Shown: positions 1,209-45,641 of the stretch, piece after piece
How the letters are laid out: the number at the start of each line of letters is the position of its first letter
How positions within the stretch are numbered: position 1 is the first letter of the stretch
DNA from: a virus
Reading direction: 5' to 3' (one strand)
Virus record (IMG/VR): IMGVR_UViG_3300048919_000305
Coordinates: 1-45,641 of that record
Length of the DNA stretch: 45,641 nucleotides
Position numbers and translations under genes: made by a program
The notes under the pieces: model-generated
Told to the model about the DNA's origin: nothing
Seen by the model: only the letters and a program-made list of their open reading frames with translations
Databases searched by the model: none

Positions 1209-1651
1209 GAGACGGGCCTTTGCGGATAAGTGGCCTCTCTGAAAACAAAAAACTGAGCACGCCGAATCCACTTATTCGGGAATTCGATCTCATCGCCCAC
1301 AGGGGCCAATTCGGGGAAACCGAGTTCACATACGATGCGTTCAAGGTCGCTCGTCACATCGAGGCCATAGCGATTAACCATGACGTGATGAATGTGGCGA
1401 AGCAATGTGCGCATATTGCGTAGCCGCGTCGTTACGCCATTCCAATTTTCGAATTGCGTAAAGGCGTGAGACGCGCAGACAAACCCTTGTCCCTGATTGA
1501 TCGAGCCGGGCAATGGGCAACCGTGAGCACAGCACGCGCCGAATTTCACCGGGGCGGTTTCCCGTTCGGCGTGCTCGGCCTCGATTTGGCCCCGGGTTTT
1601 GAAATCGGCGGGGTCCATTTTCGCGCGGCGGGGGTATTTGTCGTCGGCCAT
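1205..1651 (-). CDS. Hypothetical protein with Cys/His cluster
   Basis: I do not recognise this 148-residue protein. A cluster of cysteines and histidines near residues 40-62 (ACCAHGCPLPG, then CASH) could bind one zinc ion. The rest is mixed helical with many charged residues. It sits between the replication protein and RusA, sharing TAATG with the former and ATGA with the latter, so it is translated as part of the replication operon. A role in DNA replication or recombination is a guess from position. Confidence 0.7.
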   Translation of the reverse strand: MADDKYPRRAKMDPADFKTRGQIEAEHAERETAPVKFGACCAHGCPLPGSINQGQGFVCASHAFTQFENWNGVTTRLRNMRTLLRHIHHVMVNRYGLDVTSDLERIVCELGFPELAPVGDEIEFPNKWIRRAQFFVFREATYPQRPVS

Positions 1652-2829
1652 TAATTCACCTTGAGATTATGTGAATCAATCGCGGTTTGAATGCGGGCCT
1701 TGAATTGGTCGGTTTCTTCGCCGGGCCGAGCGCCGGAAATACCGAGTTCACGGGCTTTTGCTTCCATGGCGGGAAATGAGGCCCACCACGCATTAGCCGT
1801 TTTGGGCTTCGGTTTCTCGGCGGGCTCGGCCCGCATGGCCTCGATAACCGTTGCGAGATAGGCGGGGGCAATTTTGAACGTATCGCCCTTGTTGTCCCGA
1901 ACGCGGAAAATGGCCGCTTGCAATTCGTCGGCATTAATCCCGAGGGTGGCGAGCTTGCGGGTGCCCTCGTTATATGCGTTCGTGTTAATGCCGTATTGGC
2001 GCAGCATGCCGATTACCTGCCCGCAATCGGGGGCGGGATAACTCGGCCGGGGGAACGTGTGGATTTTGGCCGCGAGATTATCGAGGTCGTCGGCGGCCGA
2101 ATTGGGGGGCGGGTTTGATGTGCTGTTGTCGGCCCTTTCTTCGCAAGTGATCTCGCTCTCACACGCGGGTTTACCGACCACGTTTGAGATTACCTTTTGT
2201 TTGTTTTCTTGTAACTGTATCTGTAGTGCTACATCGTTATGGCTCGCGTTACGTAACGTGTTATGCCTCGTTACGTCACGCGTTACGTCACTCGTTACGC
2301 TACGCGTTACGCCTTGCGTTACGTCATCGACGGACATTTCGGGCATTTGCGGCGATGCGGCAGCAGCCTTGCGGGCACGATAGCGGCGCATGCGCTCGGC
2401 GTTGGCATTGCGCGGCGCGCGGCGTTCATCCTTTGCCGGTACGTTGTATTCGAGGAAATTAGGGAAAATGCACGTGCTCGATTCTTCGTCATGCTTGAGC
2501 CAGCCGACCGCCACCATGGCATAGCCGAAATCGGGAATTTGTGCGAGTGCATCAAAATATGCAGGCGTGACACCATGCCATACCCCGTTCCCTGTATAGA
2601 CATTTGCGGCGGCCCAAACACGCTGTAACGCGACCGTAACGAGGGCCGTAACGGCGTTACGGTATGCGTTACGCTCGTGCGCACGCGTGCCGCCCGGATA
2701 TGTGGTCTTTCCTGCGCCCGGCACGAGTGCATTAATAGCCTCGTTGTCTTCGTACAGAAAATCGACCATTCCTGCGATTTTCGGGGAATCGAAAAGCGCC
2801 TCGTTAGTACGAATCCAATTTTCCGACAT
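1651..2829 (-). CDS. DnaT/lambda O-like replication protein (replisome organiser)
   Basis: The 392-residue protein has the make-up of phage replication initiators. An N-terminal domain (about 1-130) resembles winged-helix replisome organisers: MSENWIRTNEALFDSPKI, then VGWLKHDEESSTCIFPNFLEYN. A basic AERMRRYRARKAAA segment near 145-158 follows, then a low-complexity linker with VT-x-x-VT repeats. The C-terminal region (about 270-360) contains a helical domain with TRKLATLGIN and AYLATVIEAM. Such proteins bind origin iterons and recruit host helicase loader or helicase. The linker is encoded by CGTTACG iterons (annotated separately), as in lambda O, where the origin lies inside the gene. No ATPase motif is seen, so a separate helicase is probably taken from the host. 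Confidence 0.75.
   Translation of the reverse strand: MSENWIRTNEALFDSPKIAGMVDFLYEDNEAINALVPGAGKTTYPGGTRAHERNAYRNAVTALVTVALQRVWAAANVYTGNGVWHGVTPAYFDALAQIPDFGYAMVAVGWLKHDEESSTCIFPNFLEYNVPAKDERRAPRNANAERMRRYRARKAAAASPQMPEMSVDDVTQGVTRSVTSDVTRDVTRHNTLRNASHNDVALQIQLQENKQKVISNVVGKPACESEITCEERADNSTSNPPPNSAADDLDNLAAKIHTFPRPSYPAPDCGQVIGMLRQYGINTNAYNEGTRKLATLGINADELQAAIFRVRDNKGDTFKIAPAYLATVIEAMRAEPAEKPKPKTANAWWASFPAMEAKARELGISGARPGEETDQFKARIQTAIDSHNLKVN
2247..2328. repeat. 12-bp iterons, cluster 1 (candidate origin)
   Basis: Five direct repeats with exact 12-bp period begin at 2269, 2281, 2293, 2305 and 2317, each starting CGTTACG; a degenerate sixth copy starts at 2247. They lie inside the replication gene and encode its VTxx repeats. 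Tandem iterons inside an initiator gene match the lambda ori arrangement, but a purely protein-level repeat is also possible. Confidence 0.6.
2625..2673. repeat. CGTTACG/CGTAACG iterons, cluster 2
   Basis: A second cluster within the same gene: three copies of GTAACG (2625, 2636, 2648) and two of CGTTACG (2655, 2667), spaced 11-12 bp, with the motif turning over between the two groups. The shared heptamer and spacing link it to the cluster at 2247-2328. Confidence 0.5.
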
Positions 2830-2841
2830 GGCGCACCCCGT

Positions 2842-3144
2842 TTATGCGGCGATAGTTTCGGGGCTTTCAGGCGGTGCGGTATCCGCCCGGCGCGTATGGC
2901 GCTTGCGCAATTGGCGCCCGAGCATATCCCAATAGGGATAATCAGGCCGCAAGGTCTTCGGGGTAATGCGGGGGTCGTCGCATTCGGCTACCACAATCGC
3001 CACATATTGAAACGGCATATAGGCTTTGCGGTGATGCCAAAAGGTAATGGCATCGTAACTAAGTCCGAGAATATCGGCCAAACCTTGCCGGCCGCCGAGA
3101 ATCCGCTCGGCAAGGCGGTACGTCTGATACGCGCTTTCGTACAT
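2842..3144 (-). CDS. YdaS/Cro-like DNA-binding regulator
   Basis: This 100-residue protein has one helix-turn-helix: ILGGRQGLADILGLSYDAITFWHHR at about residues 15-39. It is followed by the LRPDYPYWD element that is typical of YdaS/Cro-type phage regulators, and a basic tail (LRKRHTRR). The family binds operator DNA as small dimers and acts as antirepressor, antitoxin or Cro. It is the first gene of the leftward replication operon and lies next to the divergent control region. The ATG at 3144 is chosen because GAGG lies nine bases upstream; a GTG at 3159 is the alternative. It is the best candidate for the protein that reads the nearby decamer repeats, by position only. Confidence 0.75.
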   Translation of the reverse strand: MYESAYQTYRLAERILGGRQGLADILGLSYDAITFWHHRKAYMPFQYVAIVVAECDDPRITPKTLRPDYPYWDMLGRQLRKRHTRRADTAPPESPETIAA

Positions 3145-3188
3145 GGTGGCGGGCCTCACTGGCAGGTGATAGCAGTAAATTTCACTGA

Positions 3189-3242: not shown

Positions 3243-3342
3243 TGGCCGTTACTGGCCGTTACTGGCCGATTCTGTCCCGTGCTGGCCGTTACTGGCCGTA
3301 TCTGGCCGCCCCTGTCCTCTACTGGCCTGTACTGTCCGCGTC
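3243..3342. repeat. Ten-unit decamer array TGKCCNNNNC (control region)
   Basis: Ten consecutive 10-bp units fill 3243-3342 with no gap. They begin TGGCC seven times and TGTCC three times (3273, 3313, 3333), and nearly all end in C. The array sits between the divergent rep and recT operons. A period of exactly 10 bp puts every unit on about the same face of the helix, as expected for a protein that binds cooperatively side by side. The last four units (3303-3342) recur almost exactly near the integrase gene. Confidence 0.85.
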
Positions 3343-3533: not shown

Positions 3534-4679
3534 ATGCATCAGGTTTCGACTATCCCGGCCGATGGGCCGATTTCACACGTACCGGCCGTGGCCCGCCTGC
3601 CGATCTTTGAGCCCGGCGCGATGCAACACGCGCTGTCGATTGCCGAGGCCATGAGCAAGGCCCCGGGGCTCGTGCCGCAATTCATGCTCAACAATCCGGG
3701 CGTGTGTCTGGCCGTAACGATTCAGGCGCTCAATTGGCGCCTCGATCCGTTCAGCGTAGCCAAAGAAGCATGGGTCGAGCCGAAATCCGGCCGGCTCAAT
3801 TACACGGCCCGCACGTACGCCTCCGCCGCGCAAGCCCTCGGCGCGCTGCGTGGTGATCTCGATTTCGAAAACCTCGGGGATTGGGATCGCATCAGGGGGC
3901 GCTTTGACAAAAGCGAGCCCACGAAACCCAAACGCCTTTGGTCCGATGAGGATGAGCGCGGCCTCGCGGTGTCGTGCATCGGCACGCTTGCGCGCTCGGG
4001 GAAGACCGTCGAAAAAACGGTGTACCTCGCGGACATTGCTATCCGCAATTCGCCCCTGTGGCACACCGAGCCCGCGCAGCAGCTTTCGTACCAAGCGTGC
4101 GTCCGGTGGATTCGCCTCTACGCCCCTGCCGTGTTGATGGGGGTCAACCTCGGCGGTAACGACAATCCGAACATGCGCGACATGGGCGAGGCGCAACAGG
4201 TGCCACGCACCGACGAGGAACGCCGTGAGGCCCTCGACGCGGCCCTCAGCCCGATCAAGGCGCGCGTTACGGGCGAGCGCCTGCCGAGCCTGCCCGAAGT
4301 CCTCACGCATATCCAGATGGCCGATACGATGGCCGCCCTTGAGCGTTGCATTCAGATGGCGCAGCGCCTGCCGACCGAGATCGACAAGGCCACGGCCCGG
4401 CAGGCGTACCGCGAGAAAAACGCCGCGCTGAAAGGCCCGAGCACGAGCGCGCCAGCGCCCGAGCGTGCGCCCGATCCCGTCGCCACCGAGGCGCCCGAGA
4501 ACAGCCCGCGCACGAACGCGAACGCGCCCGTCTTCACGTACGCCGAGGTGCGCCATCAGCTTGAGCACGCCGAGACCGTTGAGGCCCTCGACGATGCCGC
4601 CAACCTCATCGGGGGCGTGGAGAACGCCGAGCACCGCGAGGAATTGGCCGCGCTCTATCACTCGTTGCGGGGGGAATGA
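3534..4679 (+). CDS. recT: RecT-family single-strand annealing protein
   Basis: The protein (381 aa) carries the RecT signature in its first half: a region around MQHALSIAEAMSKAPG, the AVTIQALNWRLDPF segment, and GRLNYTARTYASAAQ. The C-terminal third is alanine/proline/glutamate-rich, then helical. RecT-like proteins bind single-stranded DNA and anneal complementary strands during phage recombination. The ATG at 3534 is used because GAGAGGGA lies six bases upstream; a start at 3495 has no such signal. It leads the rightward operon and is coupled by ATGA to the next gene. No RecE, lambda Exo or YqaJ-type exonuclease partner is visible nearby, which is unusual. Confidence 0.85.
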   Translation: MHQVSTIPADGPISHVPAVARLPIFEPGAMQHALSIAEAMSKAPGLVPQFMLNNPGVCLAVTIQALNWRLDPFSVAKEAWVEPKSGRLNYTARTYASAAQALGALRGDLDFENLGDWDRIRGRFDKSEPTKPKRLWSDEDERGLAVSCIGTLARSGKTVEKTVYLADIAIRNSPLWHTEPAQQLSYQACVRWIRLYAPAVLMGVNLGGNDNPNMRDMGEAQQVPRTDEERREALDAALSPIKARVTGERLPSLPEVLTHIQMADTMAALERCIQMAQRLPTEIDKATARQAYREKNAALKGPSTSAPAPERAPDPVATEAPENSPRTNANAPVFTYAEVRHQLEHAETVEALDDAANLIGGVENAEHREELAALYHSLRGE

Positions 4680-4867
4680 TGCTCACCGATCAACACGAGA
4701 TGAGGTCGCTTACAGAGCTTGCCGTGAAGCTACACCGCACCGCGTGCGCGTCAGGTGAGAGCGAAGTAGCGACCGTTTCGGCAAACGACTTGCGGCGCGC
4801 AACGTGCGCGCTCTTGCTGGCGCTCGGCTTCGCTCAGGGTGTTCACGCCATGCGGGGGGAGATATGA
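4676..4867 (+). CDS. Small hypothetical protein
   Basis: A 63-residue, mainly helical protein that I do not recognise. Its start overlaps the recT stop (ATGA) and its own stop overlaps the next start in the same way, so it is translated in series with recT. The segment LRRATCALLLALGFAQG is moderately hydrophobic but too short and too polar at its ends to call a membrane helix. Confidence 0.6.
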   Translation: MMLTDQHEMRSLTELAVKLHRTACASGESEVATVSANDLRRATCALLLALGFAQGVHAMRGEI

Positions 4868-5064
4868 CAAAACCCCTGCTAGACGTATCCCGAGCGCTCA
4901 CTCTCGAAACCGCGCTGAAACTTGCGCACGGGCTCGTGCTCAATGCGCGCGTGGCCCATGCCGAGGGCCGCGCGACTATCGACGTCCCGCTCGATGTGGT
5001 GGACGTGATGGTTAGCGCGTTGCTCATCCTCACCGATGCCGACCCCATGGAGGGCGGATCATGA
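4864..5064 (+). CDS. Small hypothetical protein
   Basis: This 66-residue protein starts MTKPLLDVSRALT at an ATG that overlaps the preceding stop and has GGGGGAG seven bases upstream. It is predicted all-helical. No family is recognised. Overlapping ATGA junctions on both sides make it a true member of the recT operon. Confidence 0.65.
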   Translation: MTKPLLDVSRALTLETALKLAHGLVLNARVAHAEGRATIDVPLDVVDVMVSALLILTDADPMEGGS

Positions 5065-5330
5065 AACATGAATTTCACCCCGTGTCTGTCACCATCAAGC
5101 GCGGGCCGATGAACGACGAGACGGTCGTACTCGCAAACGCGGTGCGTGTATTCACGCATCGCCGTTCGCAGCGTTCCATATGCGTCATTGAGCCGCCCAC
5201 GGGAAGCCACGACGAACCGCTCATTATCGTGATTCCCCTCGGGGATAACGCGGCCGGCAAACCATGGATGACCGTCGATCTCTCGGCCTTGCTCGACCTG
5301 TACGAACGCGCGACAGGGGGGCAGCCATGA
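5061..5330 (+). CDS. Hypothetical protein, beta-rich
   Basis: An 89-residue protein with alternating hydrophobic residues (VTIKRG, TVVLANAV, LIIVIPLG) that suggest a small beta sheet, then a C-terminal helix (SALLDLYERAT). Not recognised. It overlaps both neighbours by ATGA. Confidence 0.65.
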   Translation: MKHEFHPVSVTIKRGPMNDETVVLANAVRVFTHRRSQRSICVIEPPTGSHDEPLIIVIPLGDNAAGKPWMTVDLSALLDLYERATGGQP

Positions 5331-5761
5331 GCGAAGCCACCACGCATAACGGGGTCGAGAACGTCCGGCGCAACCAGCTTACGCACGCGCAGATGTACCA
5401 GCTTTGCAAGATGGTCGACGCCGAGTACAGGACCGCCCACCTTACCGACGATGGGTTCGCCATGCGCGTGCAAAAGCGTTTGCCGTTCCCTGTCACGGGT
5501 TCGAACGTTGGGCGAGCACGCGTGATCCTCGGCATCGAGGGCCGGCGCATGCCGCACCAGACCGACCGCTCGCGCGACACCTCAAAGCTACATCGGGAGG
5601 TCCGCACCGTGGCCCGCGTGTGCCTGCACATCGTCGATGAATTGGGCCTCGATTTGCGGCCCGATCAGATGGCCGCGCTCAAACGCATTTGCCATTACGA
5701 GGTCGATGGCGAAGACGTGGCGCAGCAGCCGGCCGAGGGGGTAGCCCGTGAAAACAATTGA
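5327..5761 (+). CDS. Hypothetical protein, possible nucleic-acid binding
   Basis: The ATGA start at 5327 gives 144 residues; the in-frame extension upstream lies inside the previous gene and is not counted. The segment LPFPVTGSNVGRARVILGI (about 50-68) could form a helix-turn-helix and the net charge is positive around it, so DNA binding is possible. The C-terminal half is helical and acidic. No named family is recognised. Confidence 0.6.
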   Translation: MSEATTHNGVENVRRNQLTHAQMYQLCKMVDAEYRTAHLTDDGFAMRVQKRLPFPVTGSNVGRARVILGIEGRRMPHQTDRSRDTSKLHREVRTVARVCLHIVDELGLDLRPDQMAALKRICHYEVDGEDVAQQPAEGVARENN

Positions 5762-5966
5762 TGATGTGCCGAACGAAGTGGTCGAGACGCTGGAGACTTT
5801 TCTACGGGCGATGGCCCAAATGCACCCGCGCGAGGACGTTGTACTGGCCCTCTTGTATCACGGCGCGGCAGGGGTACAGGTGCATTGCGGGACCGCACAG
5901 CTACGCGCCACGCTCACCGAAATCCAAACCCTTATGGGGACTACCGAAAAGGACAGCCCGCAATGA
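5748..5966 (+). CDS. Small hypothetical protein
   Basis: A 72-residue protein with a GTG start, overlapping the previous gene by 14 bases. It is predicted as two helices followed by a short beta hairpin (GVQVHCGTAQLRATLTEI). Not recognised. The GTG is chosen because it is the first start in frame and GTAGC precedes it only weakly, so initiation probably depends on coupling. Confidence 0.55.
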   Translation: MKTIDDVPNEVVETLETFLRAMAQMHPREDVVLALLYHGAAGVQVHCGTAQLRATLTEIQTLMGTTEKDSPQ

Positions 5967-6190
5967 GTGATCCCGAAATGGTTAGCCGCGCGTGGCGCGA
6001 CGCGATCCCGATGTTTGATCTCATCGAGGACGACATGCCACTAGCCGAGATGATTTTCCTTTCTGGCATCGGGGCCGCATTTGACATGCTGGCCGAGTGT
6101 ATCGATTTCGATCAGGTGAGCGCCGTTGTGCTCGCCGCCCGCGAGCAGGCGCTCGCGCGTTCCCTTGAGCTTGAGGACGAAAATGCTTGA
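5963..6190 (+). CDS. Small acidic hypothetical protein
   Basis: This 75-residue protein begins MSDPEMVSRAWRDAIP at an ATGA overlap. It is strongly acidic (IEDDMP, ELEDENA) and helical. Small acidic early phage proteins are often inhibitors or DNA mimics, but there is no direct evidence for that here. Confidence 0.6.
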   Translation: MSDPEMVSRAWRDAIPMFDLIEDDMPLAEMIFLSGIGAAFDMLAECIDFDQVSAVVLAAREQALARSLELEDENA

Positions 6191-6677
6191 ACTATTTGAA
6201 CGCAAATGCAAGTTGCGCAGCGCGAACAATAAGCGAGAGATTCACGGGGATACGAGCGTGCTAGCTATCTATCTCTCGTTTGAATGGATCGCGCCCAATA
6301 CCGAGCTTGAGCGCCTCGGGCGCGGGTTGCTGGCCGCGCTCTACCGTAAGGGCGAGTTGCCCGTCGAAGACCTGCCCGGCATCGACGCGAAGTTGACCGC
6401 GTTGAAGTTTCCCACGCTGTCCGTCCTCACGTTTGAGGATGCGCATGAGCACATGCTATTCACCATCCATCAGGGCGGCCCAGGTCATGACTTGATCTTG
6501 GACGAATGCCTCGTTGACTGCGTGAGCATCGGCCCCAAGGATGGCGGCACGTCGACCGTGAGGTTCCGTGTGCGCACGCATCCGAAGGACAGTAAGACGG
6601 CCGGCATGCTGTGCAATTTGCTCGTGAATGGCGACATTACGGTCAGCGTGGCCGCCATGGAAAGCGAGGCCGCGTGA
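6183..6677 (+). CDS. Hypothetical early protein
   Basis: A 164-residue protein starting MLELFERKCKLRSANNKREIHG. The N-terminal half contains alternating hydrophobic residues (SVLAIYLSFEW); the C-terminal half (STVRFRVRTHP, GDITVSVAAME) looks like a beta sandwich. I do not recognise the family. It overlaps the upstream gene by eight bases and the downstream gene by one (TGATG), typical of this operon. Confidence 0.65.
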   Translation: MLELFERKCKLRSANNKREIHGDTSVLAIYLSFEWIAPNTELERLGRGLLAALYRKGELPVEDLPGIDAKLTALKFPTLSVLTFEDAHEHMLFTIHQGGPGHDLILDECLVDCVSIGPKDGGTSTVRFRVRTHPKDSKTAGMLCNLLVNGDITVSVAAMESEAA

Positions 6678-6919
6678 TGATCGGCCGCGCGGTTTACACC
6701 CTGCCGAACGGGTTGCAGATCGAGGGCACGTCAGCGGCCATCGATTGCGTGCGCCTGTTGATCGATGGCGAGCACGCGCCGGCCTCAACCGAACGCACCG
6801 CGCGCCTCATGACGAGGATTGAGGCAGCGGGGTTTGAGTTTGACGGGCTCGGCCACATCACCGGCAAGCTATCCAATTTTCGCGCGCTCTTGTCGAGCGT
6901 CGAGGGAGAAAAATCATGA
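6677..6919 (+). CDS. Small hypothetical protein
   Basis: The 80-residue protein starts MIGRAVYTLPNGLQIEG; a GTG three bases upstream would add one codon. It has a short beta hairpin, then helices. Not recognised. It is coupled to the flanking genes through TGATG upstream and ATGA downstream. Confidence 0.6.
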   Translation: MIGRAVYTLPNGLQIEGTSAAIDCVRLLIDGEHAPASTERTARLMTRIEAAGFEFDGLGHITGKLSNFRALLSSVEGEKS

Positions 6920-7530
6920 TGATGTATCGCATCACCGAAGACGAATTGCACCGCCTGTCCGCGCAACAGGTTTTCAATTACGCGCTGCGCCACCTCATGG
7001 CGATGGGGCGTCGTTGCGCCAATGAGCGTGGCGATTGCCTCTACCGGGACGGCAAGGGCGGCGCGTGCGTCGTGGGCGCTTTCATCCCCGATAGCCTGTA
7101 CTCGCGCGCGTTCGAATTTAAAAGCGTGCGCACGCTGTACGCGTTCGCAAATTCCCCCACGCTCGCGGCGTTCATCGTGCGGCATGGCCCGCTGTTGGAA
7201 AAGTTGCAGCAGGTACACGACAGTATCCACCCGAGCGGATGGGTCTGGGCTATGGGGCGCGTGGCGCAGATTTTCGCGCTCGACGAGCGCGTGCTTGAGG
7301 ACTACAACGCCCTTGAATCGTCCGACCCCTTGGAGCGTGTCGTCGTGGCGGAAAACCGCACGCCGCAATACTTTGGCCCGCATGACCCTATCGAGGCCAC
7401 GGTCACGCACACGCACTATGCAATGCCCCGCGTGGTGGCGATGACGAGCAAGATGGCGGCCCTCAGTTTGCTCGGGGCAAAGGGCATCGCGCCGAAGGTT
7501 CCCGAGCCGCACCGCCCCGTCTACTCGTGA
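6916..7530 (+). CDS. Hypothetical protein with CxYRDGKGGACVVG motif
   Basis: At 204 residues this is the second largest gene of the operon. It has a strong ribosome binding site (GAGGGAG) and an N-terminal helical part. Around residues 42-56 it contains a CLYRDGKGGACVVGAF motif, a pattern I associate with a recurrent phage protein family of unknown role; the two cysteines may pair or bind metal. The middle contains a long helix (VRHGPLLEKLQQVHDS). No enzymatic motif is certain. Confidence 0.65.
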   Translation: MMMYRITEDELHRLSAQQVFNYALRHLMAMGRRCANERGDCLYRDGKGGACVVGAFIPDSLYSRAFEFKSVRTLYAFANSPTLAAFIVRHGPLLEKLQQVHDSIHPSGWVWAMGRVAQIFALDERVLEDYNALESSDPLERVVVAENRTPQYFGPHDPIEATVTHTHYAMPRVVAMTSKMAALSLLGAKGIAPKVPEPHRPVYS

Positions 7531-7778
7531 GAACGCTACACACCATCCAGCACTATCGGTGCGTCTCGTGCGGGGAGTCCTTCGGCCTCTCTAACGTGTG
7601 GTCAATGGCGGGCCTGCGCGAGACGCAAGTATCAGGCGTGTGTGAAAAATGTTTAGTTGCACGAATGAAGGGAAACCATGAGGACGGAAATCATGACAAC
7701 GAAACGGGGCGGGCGCCCGCGCCGCTACCCGTTGCCCCCGCCGAAAAAAGCCCGGGCAACGCCAGCGAGCCAGACTAA
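7527..7778 (+). CDS. Small zinc-ribbon protein
   Basis: The 83-residue protein uses a GTG start that overlaps the previous stop. Two CxxC pairs (YRCVSCGES and GVCEKCLVAR) are spaced about 25 residues apart, as in a zinc ribbon. The C-terminal 35 residues are polar and overlap the next gene by about 100 bases, so either this tail or the next N-terminus is likely poorly conserved. The function is unknown. Confidence 0.55.
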   Translation: MRTLHTIQHYRCVSCGESFGLSNVWSMAGLRETQVSGVCEKCLVARMKGNHEDGNHDNETGRAPAPLPVAPAEKSPGNASEPD

Positions 7779-8022
7779 GCCGCCGCCCGAGCCGCCAGCA
7801 CCCGCACCAGCGGGGCCAGATGAGGCCGAGGCGCTTGAGCAAAAGGATTTGCTTACCAAGGATGAGGCCGCCGAGTTCCTGCGCATCTCGCCGCGTTCTC
7901 TGCGCCGCCTGCGCAGCGATGGCACCGGCCCGAGGGCGGTACAGGTGACGTCGCGCCGCGAGTTCTACAGGCGCGAGGATTTGGAGGAATGGTTACGGGA
8001 GAGGACAGGCGCCGAGGTGTGA
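7678..8022 (+). CDS. Excisionase-like MerR/AlpA-type HTH protein
   Basis: The protein (114 aa from 7678, or 109 from the ATG at 7693) has a proline-rich N-terminus (about 20-45) and a winged helix-turn-helix: LLTKDEAAEFLRISPRSLRRL, then GTGPRAVQ and YRREDLEEWL. This is the arrangement of AlpA/excisionase-type regulators (HTH_17). It lies at the end of the rightward operon and converges on the integrase, so it may be the recombination directionality factor. Assignment to excision rests on position plus fold type. The upstream start has AGGG five bases before it. Confidence 0.7.
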   Translation: MRTEIMTTKRGGRPRRYPLPPPKKARATPASQTKPPPEPPAPAPAGPDEAEALEQKDLLTKDEAAEFLRISPRSLRRLRSDGTGPRAVQVTSRREFYRREDLEEWLRERTGAEV

Positions 8023-8035
8023 GGCGCCCCATGAG

Positions 8036-8064
8036 AAAGGGCCGCATTGCGCGGCCCTTTTTTT
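8036..8064 (+). terminator. Intrinsic terminator between recT operon and int
   Basis: A hairpin with stem AGGGCCGC/GCGGCCCT and a five-base loop is followed by eight T residues on the plus strand. It ends the rightward operon. The minus strand also has a short T-run, so the hairpin probably acts on integrase transcripts too. Confidence 0.85.
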
Positions 8065-9238
8065 ACATCGTGGCGAACATCTTGTTGACCCGTTCGCGCT
8101 CGTGCGCCGGGTTGATGTGGCCGTAATTCTCATCGATCATTTTGAGGCTCGTCCCTGCGAGCCGGGACACCGTGAGCGTGTCCAAACCCATTTCCAGCAC
8201 GTGCGAGATTGCCGTATGCCGCAAGTTGTAAAGGCAGAATTCGGGCGGCAGACCTGCATGCTTGGCGACGCGCTTTACTCGCACATTCCAATCGTTCGTC
8301 GTCCAGCGCTCACCGTTGCACGTGAACAGGGGCGCGGCCGGGGTCTTGTCTTTGCAAAGGCGGCGCAGCAAATTGGCGGCGCGCTCATTGAGTTGGACCG
8401 AGCGCATGCCCGTCTTGCTCACGTGCTCTTTGATGTGAACGTACCCGGCGCGTTGATCGAAATCCGCCACGTTGAGGCCCGTAAGTTCACCGGGGCGGAA
8501 CGCGGTAAGCAGCATGGCGTCCATGAGATCGCGCAGATCGGTAAGCCCGAGCGCCTCAGCCGAGGCCAGCGCGGCGGCGCGTTGCTCGGGCGTGAGGTAC
8601 AGGGTGCGGCTTGCCTGAATGCCGCCCCACGCGCCGAGCTTCGTCCACGCGCCGTCAGATTCCACCCAATGCATTTCAAGAAACGCGTAGTTAAGCGCGG
8701 CCTTGATCGTCGTCCACTTGCGGGTGGCGGTGGCGTTGGCGCGGCGCACGCTTTCCGGGTCTAGCGGGTCTTTGGGGTTCGGCAGGGCCAGCCGGAACGC
8801 GATCATTTCTTGCCGCGTGAGGGATACCAGCGCGCGGCGCGCGAAAGTGCCATCGGGGGGGACCATCAGATCGAGCGAGCGCTTTGCCGTGTCGTGAGCT
8901 TTGGCGCCATCCGCAGAGAGCTTGTGCGCGAGATAGGCGTCGATGGCATCGGCCACGGTATGCGCGCCCGTCACGCCCTTATTGACCCGCTTGGCGAAGT
9001 CACGCGCCAGCGTGGCCGCGCGGGCGAAGCGATGTTCGGCGGGGATTTCCGAGAGGGTGCCTAGCGCCTCGTGCTTGGTCTTGCCGCTCGTTTCCTCGGT
9101 CACGCGGGCAATCCACGTTTGGCCCGTGGCGAGGATGCGCACGCCCACATAGAGGCGGGGCTCGATGCGTTGAAAGTAAGGCGCCGGGCGGGCGTCCAGT
9201 GCGTTGCGGCGGGCGGTAGTGTCGATCTGTTGGGACAT
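8063..9238 (-). CDS. int: Tyrosine recombinase (phage integrase)
   Basis: The 391-residue protein has the integrase layout: an arm-binding/core N-terminal region, then the catalytic domain with R248 (TAFRPGELTGL), K275 (SKTGMRS), R340 (YNLRHTAISH) and the nucleophile Y372 (ENYGH). The usual first histidine of the HxxR box is Y337 and the usual LGH histidine is replaced in LAGTSLKMI; both changes are common in this phage branch. It catalyses insertion of phage DNA at attB and, with a directionality factor, excision. The ATG at 9238 has AGGA seven bases upstream. The decamer repeats lie within 45-160 bp upstream of its start, where arm-type or operator sites would be expected. Confidence 0.95.
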   Translation of the reverse strand: MSQQIDTTARRNALDARPAPYFQRIEPRLYVGVRILATGQTWIARVTEETSGKTKHEALGTLSEIPAEHRFARAATLARDFAKRVNKGVTGAHTVADAIDAYLAHKLSADGAKAHDTAKRSLDLMVPPDGTFARRALVSLTRQEMIAFRLALPNPKDPLDPESVRRANATATRKWTTIKAALNYAFLEMHWVESDGAWTKLGAWGGIQASRTLYLTPEQRAAALASAEALGLTDLRDLMDAMLLTAFRPGELTGLNVADFDQRAGYVHIKEHVSKTGMRSVQLNERAANLLRRLCKDKTPAAPLFTCNGERWTTNDWNVRVKRVAKHAGLPPEFCLYNLRHTAISHVLEMGLDTLTVSRLAGTSLKMIDENYGHINPAHERERVNKMFATM

Positions 9239-9283: not shown

Positions 9284-9333
9284 TGGCCGGTACTGGCCGG
9301 TACTGGCCGCCCCTGTCCTCTACTGGCCGGAAA
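9284..9333 (+). repeat. Decamer array upstream of int, plus orientation
   Basis: Five consecutive 10-bp units (start 9284, 9294, 9304, 9314, 9324) follow the same TGKCCNNNNC pattern as the array at 3243-3342. The 26 bases 9303-9328 are identical to 3302-3327. Confidence 0.85.
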
Positions 9334-9355
9334 CCTAAGCCCAGTAAGGGTTAGC

Positions 9356-9395
9356 GGTTCGGACAGTATAGGCCAGCACAGGACAGGGGAGGCCA
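9356..9395 (-). repeat. Decamer array upstream of int, inverted
   Basis: Read on the minus strand from 9395, four consecutive units fit the decamer pattern (TGG, TGT, TGG, TGT starts). They match the order and most bases of 3303-3342. Together with 9284-9333 they form an inverted pair of arrays about 22 bp apart. Confidence 0.8.
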
Positions 9396-9543
9396 AAATA
9401 CCCCCCGTTTTCGCGCTTGTACGGCACGAGTGGCGGGAGGTGCCACCTACCCGCTAGGCCATACAGGGCAACGGGTAGAGCCGCATAGTACCAGATGTTT
9501 TTTTGGCTCATGTAAAGATTTTGCCAAGAAACGTGCGCGGCCC

Positions 9544-9606
9544 GCTAAACCGCCCGGGGCGGAGTTTAGGGGCTGTAAACCGCTATGGGCGGTGTTTAGC
9601 AGCCAG
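9544..9606. repeat. Two tandem imperfect palindromes (TAAACCGC)
   Basis: Two adjacent hairpin-capable sequences share TAAACCGC on the left arm and GCGG-T/A-GTTTA on the right. The second is extended by GGCTG/CAGCC at its base. They look like a pair of operator half-sites or a structured RNA; there is no T-run directly after them. Confidence 0.5.
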
Positions 9607-9655: not shown

Positions 9656-9841
9656 GACAAGAAAACGCCGGGCAGTGTCGATGCGCCGGGCGGCCGGCAG
9701 TATGACGAGGGCCTGCCGTTCTGTCGAGGGGCGCGGCCTCGAATACCTCGGATCGGGTATTGGCCCGGCCAGCCTTTCGACGAGAGGATGACCGTTCCCG
9801 CGATGAGCACCGCGCCGCGCGGGCTTCGTTGTAACCGCTAC

Positions 9842-11791: not shown

Positions 11792-12901
11792 ATGAGAAAG
11801 CTAGACGAGATGATCCGTGCGGCACGAGAGGCCGCCGAACAGATTTGCATACCGAGATACGTTTTAGAGGGCCTGCTAGGCGAGGCCGAGAAACAAGCCC
11901 GTAGCGCCGCCGAAATGGCCGCCCTGTGGGATGGCCTCAAAGGACCTGAATACGTGGCGCCACGGGCCGCCACACCAGCGCCAGCCCCACGGCCGGCAGC
12001 GCCGCCAGAACCCAAGATTGCCCGCGCCTATGTCAGCCCCCCGGGACCGCCCGTGGATGACCGCAAGTTGGCGCAGTTAGCGCAGCGTTTCACCGTGAAG
12101 GGTTTGGACAAACTCAACACCGCCCCGGCCCCGTCGCCAGCACCAGCGCCCGACCTGGACCCGGTTCCTGAAACCCCGAGCAACGTTTCGCCCCTGCGCC
12201 ACTACGCGCATTTTTCCGAGGACATTGCGCGGGAGTTTCCCGAGGCCGTGCTCGACGCCATCCTCAGCGGGACGGCACCGTGGCGCGCGTGGCGCGATTA
12301 CTTCGGGGGCGCGGTGCGTAGTGTGGCCGAGGCGTGCGCCGTTGATCCGAGCCGCGTCTATCAGTTCGAATTGAAGGATTGGCGCGCCGGGCGCCAGCCA
12401 CAGGCCCACCACTTGCAAACGATGGCCGAGCTTTTTGGCGTGCCCCTCGAATGGATTCAGGCCGAGAGCGTGAAGCCCGCGCCGATGGCCCGCCCCACGG
12501 TCCAACAGCCGCCGAGTCACGCCTCACAGATCGCGCAAAGCGCGATTGCCAAGCCCCGCCACAAGCCCGAGCCCCCGCCCCCCGAGTTTCAGCGCGACAA
12601 GGGCTTGCGCGTTGACCTCGTGGGCGTCACCGCAAAGCAATTTGCCGAGATAGCCCGCGCCGCGCGCGACACTGGCTTAGACCTCAATCATGTTCAGTTC
12701 CGCGAGAGCACCGCGCCGCGCGTGACCGCTCGTGTCGTGGTGGCCGTCGAGCGCGGATGCAAGGGGCTCGCGGCTAAGGCCGTCAAGGTGCAAACCGGCG
12801 CAAACGGCGCCGCCCTGCATTGGGTCCACGGGTCTATGTCCTCGATTGTGGAGACACTGCGCGGCATCGAGAACGAACCCGAAGCGAGGGCGCAAGCATA
12901 G
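11792..12901 (+). CDS. XRE-like HTH protein with Pro/Ala-rich linkers
   Basis: The 369-residue protein has an N-terminal helical segment, a proline/alanine-rich linker (about 55-130), and a central domain. That domain (about 160-215) has a helix-turn-helix of the XRE type: SVAEACAVDPSRVYQFE, then LQTMAELFGVPLEWIQ. A second proline-rich linker (about 220-265) leads to a C-terminal domain of about 100 residues with beta segments (LRVDLVGV, RVTARVVVAVER). It is the largest accessory protein. It might act as the missing repressor or as an operon regulator, but it has no LexA-type peptidase. No named family is certain. Confidence 0.6.
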   Translation: MRKLDEMIRAAREAAEQICIPRYVLEGLLGEAEKQARSAAEMAALWDGLKGPEYVAPRAATPAPAPRPAAPPEPKIARAYVSPPGPPVDDRKLAQLAQRFTVKGLDKLNTAPAPSPAPAPDLDPVPETPSNVSPLRHYAHFSEDIAREFPEAVLDAILSGTAPWRAWRDYFGGAVRSVAEACAVDPSRVYQFELKDWRAGRQPQAHHLQTMAELFGVPLEWIQAESVKPAPMARPTVQQPPSHASQIAQSAIAKPRHKPEPPPPEFQRDKGLRVDLVGVTAKQFAEIARAARDTGLDLNHVQFRESTAPRVTARVVVAVERGCKGLAAKAVKVQTGANGAALHWVHGSMSSIVETLRGIENEPEARAQA

Positions 12902-32007: not shown

Positions 32008-32186
32008 TGCGCCCCCCTTTGCTCGGCCGCCTCGGTGAGCGTTAGGGTGATGTGACAGAACGCGACGCACGCCGGTTGCCACGCGCCCCGGATCAATGCG
32101 CCGTGGCCTGTCGTGCCGCACCCCCCGGTCAGCAGGGCGAGCAACAGCAGCGCCGCGAGGCGGGCCAGATCGAGGTCAATCATCAT
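32004..32186 (-). CDS. Small lipoprotein-like or membrane protein
   Basis: A 60-residue protein starting [27 protein letters not shown]. It has a hydrophobic signal-like helix and a lipobox-like LLTGGC (the -3 position is T rather than L/V/I, so the match is imperfect). The stop overlaps the adaptor start by ATGA. A lipoprotein inside the head operon is odd; Rz1-like lipoproteins have a similar size but normally lie with lysis genes. The function is unknown. Confidence 0.55.
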
Positions 32187-34261
32187 GTGTCCCCCTGCGC
32201 GCCGAGCGCGTGGAAACGCAGCGCGGCCGGGTCCGCATAGGGGCGGCCGATTGCGGCTTGATTACGGGCCACGAACGTGAGCGCGGCCGAGGTGCGGCCC
32301 GTCTCGAAAATGGCGAAATCCTCTGAGGCCGAGGCAATCACGAGGGTTTGAGGTAGCACCGCGAAACCGGCCGAGAGCGTGTAATGCCCCGCGCTATCGC
32401 GCACGAGCGAGGTGAACCCTTGGAGCGCGGACACCGTGAGCACGCCGCCCGCAATCGTGGCAAGCGCGTAGCCGCGCCGGACGGTCATGCTCGGGGGCAG
32501 TACCGCGTCGGCGCCTGTAGCGCCCTCAGGGCCTTGCGGGCCGTCTGGCCCCTGTGGCCCCTCAGGGCCAGTCGCGCCCGTGGCGCCTGTGGCCCCTGTC
32601 GGGCCTGCGTCGCCCTGCGGGCCAGCAGGGCCAGCCGGCGCGGTGAATTCGGACCAGTGCGTGAGATCGGCCGAGGGTGGCGTCGTGCTCGTGTACGGCG
32701 CGCCATCGGTGAGGATGTACATCGAGACCACGCCCTCGCCGTTGTCGGCAAAAACGTAATCGTTCGGATCGTATGTGGTGCCGCTCACCCAATCGCCGCG
32801 ATTGTTCAGACCCGTCCCGGGGGAGCCTTGCGGGCCGGTGGCGCCAGTCGGGCCAGCCGGCCCCATAGGCCCGGCAGGGCCATTAGCGCCGGCCACACCG
32901 GGCGATCCTGTGGCACCCGTGGCACCCGTAGCACCCCGGGCGCCCGTAGCGCCTGCGGGGCCTGTAGGCCCTTGCGGCCCTTCTGGCCCGGGCGGGCCTT
33001 GCGGGCCAGTGCCGCCGCCGCCGCCCGAATCGCCGCCGCCGCCCCATTTCGCCAACAGGCGCCACGCCTCATTGCCGGCCAGCGGGTTAAAGGGCGTGCC
33101 CCCCGGGGCGGTGCCATCGGATGGCCGGCGCGCGAGGTAGAGCGCCGTGCCGTAAATCACCACATCGCCCACGGCATAGGCCACGCCCGATTGCCAGATG
33201 CCCCGGAAAAAGCGCAAGGGCGTGGCGGCCTCGTCCTCGGGCACGAACAGGCCGTCGACCATGGCCCGGCATACGCCCGATACCTCGGCCTCGATCTCGG
33301 CCCGATCCTGCGCGGCCAGATCGCGCATGACTTCCATTGCGGCCGTGAGAACCGGAGCCAGGTCGACCGTGTGCGGGATCATTTCGCCCGTACCATCGCG
33401 CATCACCACCGCCAGCACCGAGCCGCGCAATTCCATCGCTTCGAGCGTGGCCCCATCGGTGCCGTCCCGGCCATCGCGCCCGGCCGCGCCCGGCTCGCCC
33501 GGGGCGCCGCGCAGCGTGCCGAGCAATTGCCGTTGCCGGCCGCCATGCATCACCATGAGCGAGCGCTCGCGGACGAACAAATCGCCCTCATCGTATTCGC
33601 GGCCCTCGCACCATGCGGGCGCGATGCGGAAACCGGCCGTCCCCACGCGCGCCCACTTTTCCGAGTGGCCGGGCTCTGCGTCGGTGTCGTCGAGCGCTTC
33701 GAAATATTGGCCGATGTTGTGCTGTACCCGCTCGCCCTTGAGGTAGGCGGCGCCAGCCACATAACGCGGCGTGTTGATGCCGAGGCCGTCGCGCCCCGGC
33801 AAGCCCGCCTCCCCGTCTACCCCGTCCCGGCCATCCTTGCCAGCGGCGCCGGGAATGCCGTCCTTGCCATCGCGGCCAGCCGGGCCGGGCGCGCCGTCCT
33901 TGCCGTCTGCACCGGGAATGCCCGGGGCGCCGTTGAAACCGTGCCGGCCATCCTTGCCCGGCTCGCCGCGTTCGCCTTTCTCGCCTTTCTCGCCGCGTTC
34001 GCCCGGCATACCGTCCTTGCCGTCGCGCCCGTTGCGGCCATCCTTGCCGTCTTTGCCGTTGATGCCGCGCGCGCCCTCGATCCCGTCCCGGCCATCCTTG
34101 CCGGGCAAACCCTGCGGGCCGGGCACCAGCTTGCGGGCGCGCTCGGCTTCGAGGCCCTCGCGGAGTTCGCGCAGCAACGGGGACAGGGCGACGCCAATCC
34201 CCTCGGCCAGCAATTCGGCTGTAGCCGCCGCGAGGATTTCGGGACGGGCCGGCGCATTCAT
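32183..34261 (-). CDS. Collagen-like repeat protein with Trp-rich beta modules
   Basis: The 692-residue protein has two long Gly-X-Y collagen-like blocks, one near 45-165 ([11 protein letters not shown] type) and one near 415-510 ([10 protein letters not shown] type), and shorter ones near 265-280 and 545-590. Between them are Trp-containing modules that resemble CBM5/12-like carbohydrate-binding folds ([20 protein letters not shown], and the [20 protein letters not shown] type). The C-terminal 100 residues are beta-rich. Phage collagen-like proteins form trimeric fibres or head/tail decorations. Its place between portal and adaptor is unusual for a fibre and suggests a neck or whisker part or head fibre. 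Confidence 0.7.
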
Positions 34262-45622: not shown

Positions 45623-45641
45623 GTTCGCGCGGAAAGTGCCA
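45623..45641. repeat. 19-bp terminal direct repeat, right copy
   Basis: This is identical to bases 1-19. See the left copy for the interpretation. Confidence 0.8.

Follow-up and report, generated by a model that had tools for sequence, protein, structure and literature searches.

Two arrays of turn-spaced decamers share a candidate operator code at the early and integrase regions of a recT-type phage

We describe a phage genome in which asymmetric decamers of the form TGKCCNNNNC, arranged head to tail about one helical turn apart, form two arrays, one between the divergent early operons (array A) and one upstream of the integrase gene (array B; Table 1). The presence of the same code at the early-promoter region and upstream of int suggests that one small excisionase-like protein ties excision to early gene control, and we propose an Xis-like winged-helix protein of the phage as the likely reader. 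The window, by which we mean the whole stretch of DNA that was analysed, comprises the 45,641 nucleotides of IMG/VR record IMGVR_UViG_3300048919_000305. Its ends (1-19 and 45623-45641) are identical, and this 19-bp terminal overlap indicates that the genome is probably complete and was assembled as a circle. The phage is of recT type with an HK022-like terminase, and is not P2-like; the phage collection, searched by DNA and by protein, yielded only distant relatives of its RecT, and no close relatives of the int region, of Int or of the YdaS-like protein. Among its structural genes, a 692-residue protein (32183-34261) carries collagen-like Gly-X-Y repeats.

Table 1. Coordinates of the two arrays and of the genes discussed, numbered from the first base of the window.
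Feature	Position	Strand	Description and evidence
Array A	3243..3342	+	Ten head-to-tail decamers TGKCCNNNNC, 10-bp pitch; from sequence, pattern and run counts
Array B, plus-strand half	9284..9333	+	Five decamers; resembles units 5-9 of array A (43/50)
Array B, minus-strand half	9356..9395	-	Four decamers facing the plus half; resembles units 7-10 of array A (33/40)
Array B centre, AAACCTAAGCCCAGTAAGGGTTAGC	9331..9355	+	Between the facing halves; identical in the relative; matches a Burkholderiaceae motif
Replication initiation protein	1651..2829	-	phrog_2509 3e-17
YdaS/Cro-like regulator	2842..3159	-	phrog_35 1.6e-05; YdaS_toxin 3e-05 (below curated cut-off); first gene of leftward operon
RecT-like annealing protein	3534..4679	+	phrog_561 2.6e-31; RecT 7.8e-10; first gene of rightward run
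Xis/RDF-like winged-helix protein (HTH_17)	7678..8022	+	HTH_17 5e-11; phrog_66 excisionase 1.6e-11
Tyrosine integrase	8063..9238	-	PF00589 1.7e-14; phrog_1 9e-41; array B in its upstream region

Array A separates a leftward operon, which encodes the YdaS/Cro-like regulator, the replication initiator and then RusA, from an unbroken rightward run of plus-strand ORFs (3534-8022) that has recT as its first gene, beside the array, and xis as its last, convergent with int. No excess of terminators was found in this run. Array B consists of direct repeats of the same 10-bp pitch in 5+4 units, located 46-157 bp upstream of int. Its plus-strand cores (TGGCC or TGTCC) start at 9284, 9294, 9304, 9314 and 9324, and its minus-strand cores occupy 9391-9395, 9381-9385, 9371-9375 and 9361-9365. 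The coordinates of all nine cores bear out an earlier sequence-only reading of this region, which had described five plus-strand and four minus-strand units facing each other about 22 bp apart; the gap is 22 bp when whole units are considered and 32 bp between the cores. Together the two arrays define a candidate operator code of 19 units with four invariant positions. We found no sigma-70-like promoter adjoining either array. Beyond array B, two imperfect palindromes (CTAAACCGCCCGGGGCGGAGTTTAG and GTAAACCGCTATGGGCGGTGTTTAG) occur at 9538-9606, possibly representing another operator or an attachment-site core.

Runs of this code are confined to the two loci. The exact two-unit pattern TGKCCNNNNCTGKCC matched 16 times in the 45.6 kb window, in all cases inside arrays A and B, and allowing one mismatch yielded 25 matches where 4.1 were expected. 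The real runs extend over 10, 5 and 4 units, while the longest run across 300 simulated windows with the same local dinucleotide content as the real sequence was of three units and occurred once. Furthermore, a weight matrix built from array A alone recovered the two halves of array B at 48.5 and 36.2 bits, compared with 10.7 bits for the next best site, and the reverse search, with a matrix built from array B, recovered array A far ahead of any other site. The expectation that only these two loci should stand out thus holds for exact two-unit matches, no comparable run occurs elsewhere in the genome, and the recurrence of the decamer arrays is confirmed.

The two arrays also resemble one another beyond their cores. 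The 26 bases at 9303-9328 are identical to 3302-3327, as previously noted, and the minus-strand set, said to match 3303-3342 over nearly all positions, does so at 33 of 40. These unit alignments are compatible with one array having given rise to the other; this is suggestive only, because permuted unit orders reach the best alignment score in 8/120 cases for the plus half and in 3/24 for the minus half.

Both arrays are preserved in the sole close relative that we found, IMGVR_UViG_3300009991_000006, where they have the same number of units, the same order and the same facing arrangement, arguing against the possibility that the matches stem from a recent duplication without conservation. The arrays are 94-96% identical between the two phages (94% for array A), compared with 78-82% for the flanks of array A and 89% for the stretch beyond array B. 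All 10 substitutions within the 190 bp of the arrays fall outside the TG.CC positions (hypergeometric P = 0.005). Flanks are mostly more diverged than the arrays, except for the leader between int and array B (98%) and the centre of array B (100%), which are conserved like the arrays. Only the present phage has the 26-base stretch in identical copies in A and B; the corresponding segments of the relative show mismatches to one another in the spacers and at K, indicating that the constraint acts on the TGKCC register and not on the 26-mer. In addition, the relative carries IS3-like reading frames inserted between xis and int (L147, 7600-9003).

Conservation of the arrays can be compared with that of the proteins that might read them. 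In phage P4, gp-alpha reads both ori and crr, and by analogy the decamers could be replication iterons that the phage initiator reads at two loci; facing TGTCC decamers that adjoin primase, helicase or initiator genes, or fall within them, in several contigs of unrelated phages are in line with such a role. However, the phage has separate 12-bp CGTAACG repeats, presumably iterons, inside its initiator gene (2235-2326), and in the relative these are replaced by GTCACG/CGTGAC repeats (L147, about 2190-2300), while the two initiators share only 44% identity over residues 1-210, compared with 88% over the remainder. Both TGKCC arrays keep their cores nonetheless, and so do not co-vary with the initiator, whose DNA-binding part we assume to be its N-terminal half. 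Since this half and the initiator's own repeats have diverged while the arrays have not lost their cores, we consider the initiator a very unlikely reader. The changed repeats and N-terminal half appear to constitute a natural replication-module difference between the two phages, and because both arrays are retained across it, it helps to separate excision-type from replication-type control.

The YdaS/Cro-like regulator could instead read both arrays as phage repressor operators, an option that its location would suit, as 84 bp separate the start of its gene from array A; its product is 94-96% identical in the relative. Yet a characterised YdaS is reported to use four palindromes of 18 bp (PMC8630535), whereas the TGKCC units of both arrays are asymmetric and lack the palindromic form of Cro, CI or YdaS operators. 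The family match of the regulator also lies below the curated cut-off. Given that the known sites of this type of protein are palindromes, we regard it as an improbable reader.

We favour, with confidence somewhat above even, a reading in which both arrays represent one operator code recognised by the Xis-like winged-helix recombination directionality factor (RDF; 7678-8022), acting as a filament-forming protein at both loci. Pointing to this protein are its predicted winged-helix fold, the 98% identity of its winged-helix domain between the two phages, the precedent of RDFs and of BldC for head-to-tail binding, and the weaker case for the initiator and the YdaS-like regulator. Its PDB matches include an AlpA-family protein (8c3t, 0.0014) and RdfS (0.078), and its structural model contains a winged-helix domain with pLDDT of about 80-89 at residues 61-110. 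RdfS, the GIsul2 excisionase and BldC were the best Foldseek matches of this model, followed lower down by Pukovnik Xis; the E-values were modest, at about 0.001 to 0.05, and the model was built from two sequences only. The N-terminal tail of the protein is basic and proline-rich (KRGGRPRRYPLPPPKKAR; window 7678-7780), with an AT-hook-like core. Points that count against an Xis-like reader include the single close relative, the facing halves and the gene order discussed below, the many facing TGTCC arrays next to replication genes, and the finding that HTH_17 proteins showed no link to similar arrays in unrelated phages.

Under this favoured reading, Xis monomers would bind head to tail, one per decamer and along a single face of the DNA, yielding a short filament with a bend. 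Such a filament on array A would overlie the promoter region from which the leftward (YdaS-like, rep) and rightward (recT to xis) operons diverge, such that occupancy of the array would control both early operons and thereby feed back on xis. On array B, a filament would occupy the int control region, repressing or tuning int, and may also shape attachment-site DNA for excision, with the facing halves building two filaments that converge on the fixed 22-bp centre. The earlier proposal that one protein probably controls both the early and the integrase regions gains support from the shared code, its restriction to two loci and the joint conservation of the arrays, as judged from sequence comparison.

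The earlier sequence-only reading had offered integrase arm sites as an alternative role for the arrays. Array B would then comprise arm-type sites of the integrase, with the core at the 22-bp centre between them; array A would be a second Int target or a duplicated fragment. Several features fit this option for array B: the 10-bp pitch is compatible with lambda-type arm sites, the Int N-terminal domain is 90% identical and the centre unchanged in the relative, and distant Int relatives carry 2-3 direct repeats TACGGAAAT, with a pitch of about 11 bp, just upstream of int. Such repeats, at least two per locus, are found in most of the Burkholderiaceae loci whose Int is ~33-39% identical, and these loci are devoid of TGKCC arrays. 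Arm sites are therefore possible for array B, but alone they leave unexplained the longer conserved array, of 10 units, that lies 6 kb away at the promoters of the divergent recT and rep operons. Moreover, the spacing between the arms and the centre leaves no room of the kind required by a bend protein, and no attachment-site core was identified at the centre. Overall, we think it unlikely that integrase arm binding accounts for the arrays, and the earlier interpretation is partly supported, with the Xis-like protein now proposed as the reader.

Distant relatives of Int mostly use as attachment site a tRNA 3' end located 140-200 bp upstream of int. By analogy, the core would be expected on the far side of array B from int, and array B thus probably lies on the int-side arm of the attachment site. 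A DNA search with the int-upstream region gave no tRNA match that would mark an attP core, and scanning of genome contigs for Int revealed no integrated prophage copy. A cluster at 9788-9823 was set aside as a candidate attP core, as this stretch is not conserved in the relative. The centre of array B was likewise considered as an attB/attP core; it matches conserved Burkholderiaceae loci, yet no identity block typical of att sites was established. The centre motif had 32-33 matches in 30/398 Burkholderiaceae genomes, versus one match for the reversed-pattern control. Its sites include one in a conserved intergenic region adjoining a yggX-like gene and positions near parB on apparent plasmids. 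It was also seen at the int/tRNA junctions of unrelated elements, in the same orientation relative to int.

Similar arrays were also found elsewhere. The matches of a pattern scan of genomes were mostly low-complexity tandem repeats, such as (CTGTC)n. Facing TGTCC decamers of the same pitch were detected in some 20 other viral contigs, several of them beside or inside primase, helicase or initiator genes; these contigs were selected by pattern with no control set of random loci, making the association with replication genes an impression and not a measured enrichment. Such arrays may be origin iterons or operators, and their occurrence beside replication genes in many unrelated phages shows that they can serve functions other than excision. 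In one alphaproteobacterial genome we counted 16 three-unit TGKCC matches and none in the reversed control, spread over many contigs and apparently mostly between chromosomal genes. In an Acidobacteria genome, seven TGTCC decamers precede an integrase gene by about 100 bp (L300, 1045-2484).

These occurrences bear on two broader possibilities. Both arrays could be read by a protein of the host or by a further, uncharacterised regulator of the phage, such as the HTH protein at 11792-12901, which is 90% identical between the two phages. The 10-bp TGTCC arrays in unrelated phages and in the alphaproteobacterial genome are in keeping with this. This option lacks a specific candidate, and those other arrays use TGTCC rather than mostly TGGCC; we judge it rather unlikely. 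We are similarly doubtful, though marginally less so, that head-to-tail and facing TGKCC decamers of 10-bp pitch, beside primase, helicase, initiator and recombination genes in phages of several bacterial groups, make up a widespread, undescribed class of phage control elements read by filament-forming monomers, here extended from the early region to int, with facing halves that build two converging filaments.

Reading by the Xis-like protein has its closest parallel in phage 186, where the RDF Apl binds direct repeats one turn apart, of which pR-pL has seven and attP five (PMC7498355). Three features are shared with 186 Apl and P2 Cox: turn-spaced direct repeats near int, a code in common with the early region, and a small HTH-type RDF gene. 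Like Apl, the present system has such repeats at two loci, with 10 and 5+4 units in place of 7 and 5. The att sites of Apl are direct repeats, whereas the int-side sites here form two facing halves, and the face-to-face early promoters of 186 contrast with early operons that diverge around the array. In the early lytic operon of P2-like phages the RDF gene comes first, while here xis is the last ORF of the run, next to int, so we class the system as one working like Apl/Cox and not as a P2-like member. P2 Cox and P4 Vis are also excisionases that repress early or int promoters from multiple boxes; the portions of the literature covered here report no facing arrays for them, in contrast to the present phage. 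If the favoured reading holds, the Apl/Cox logic, in which one RDF wires excision to early control, would reach a recT-type lineage that has no close relatives in the phage collection.

Among solved structures, that of RdfS from ICEMlSymR7A is closest to the Xis-like protein. RdfS binds its own promoter as well as attP, which lies upstream of intS (PMC11963761). RdfS has no consensus motif, which makes questions of filament formation hard to address in that system; the strict TGKCC code found here, unusually clean, would render filament length, spreading and the geometry of facing arrays directly testable if the Xis-like protein is the reader. TorI of KplE1 represses intS from att and offers a likeness for an int gene transcribed from a dedicated promoter that overlaps the att region and is repressed by the RDF; its five sites lie in two blocks, and the sections of the published account covered here describe no second array in the early region. 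BldC, a MerR/HTH_17-like winged-helix protein, binds head to tail on direct repeats whose number varies (consensus AATTXXXX(C); PMC5859096), but it is a developmental regulator and not an RDF, and its sequence code is different. Dual control of the Apl, Cox and RdfS type is thus already known, and what is unusual in the present phage is the pair of facing sub-arrays around a conserved centre.
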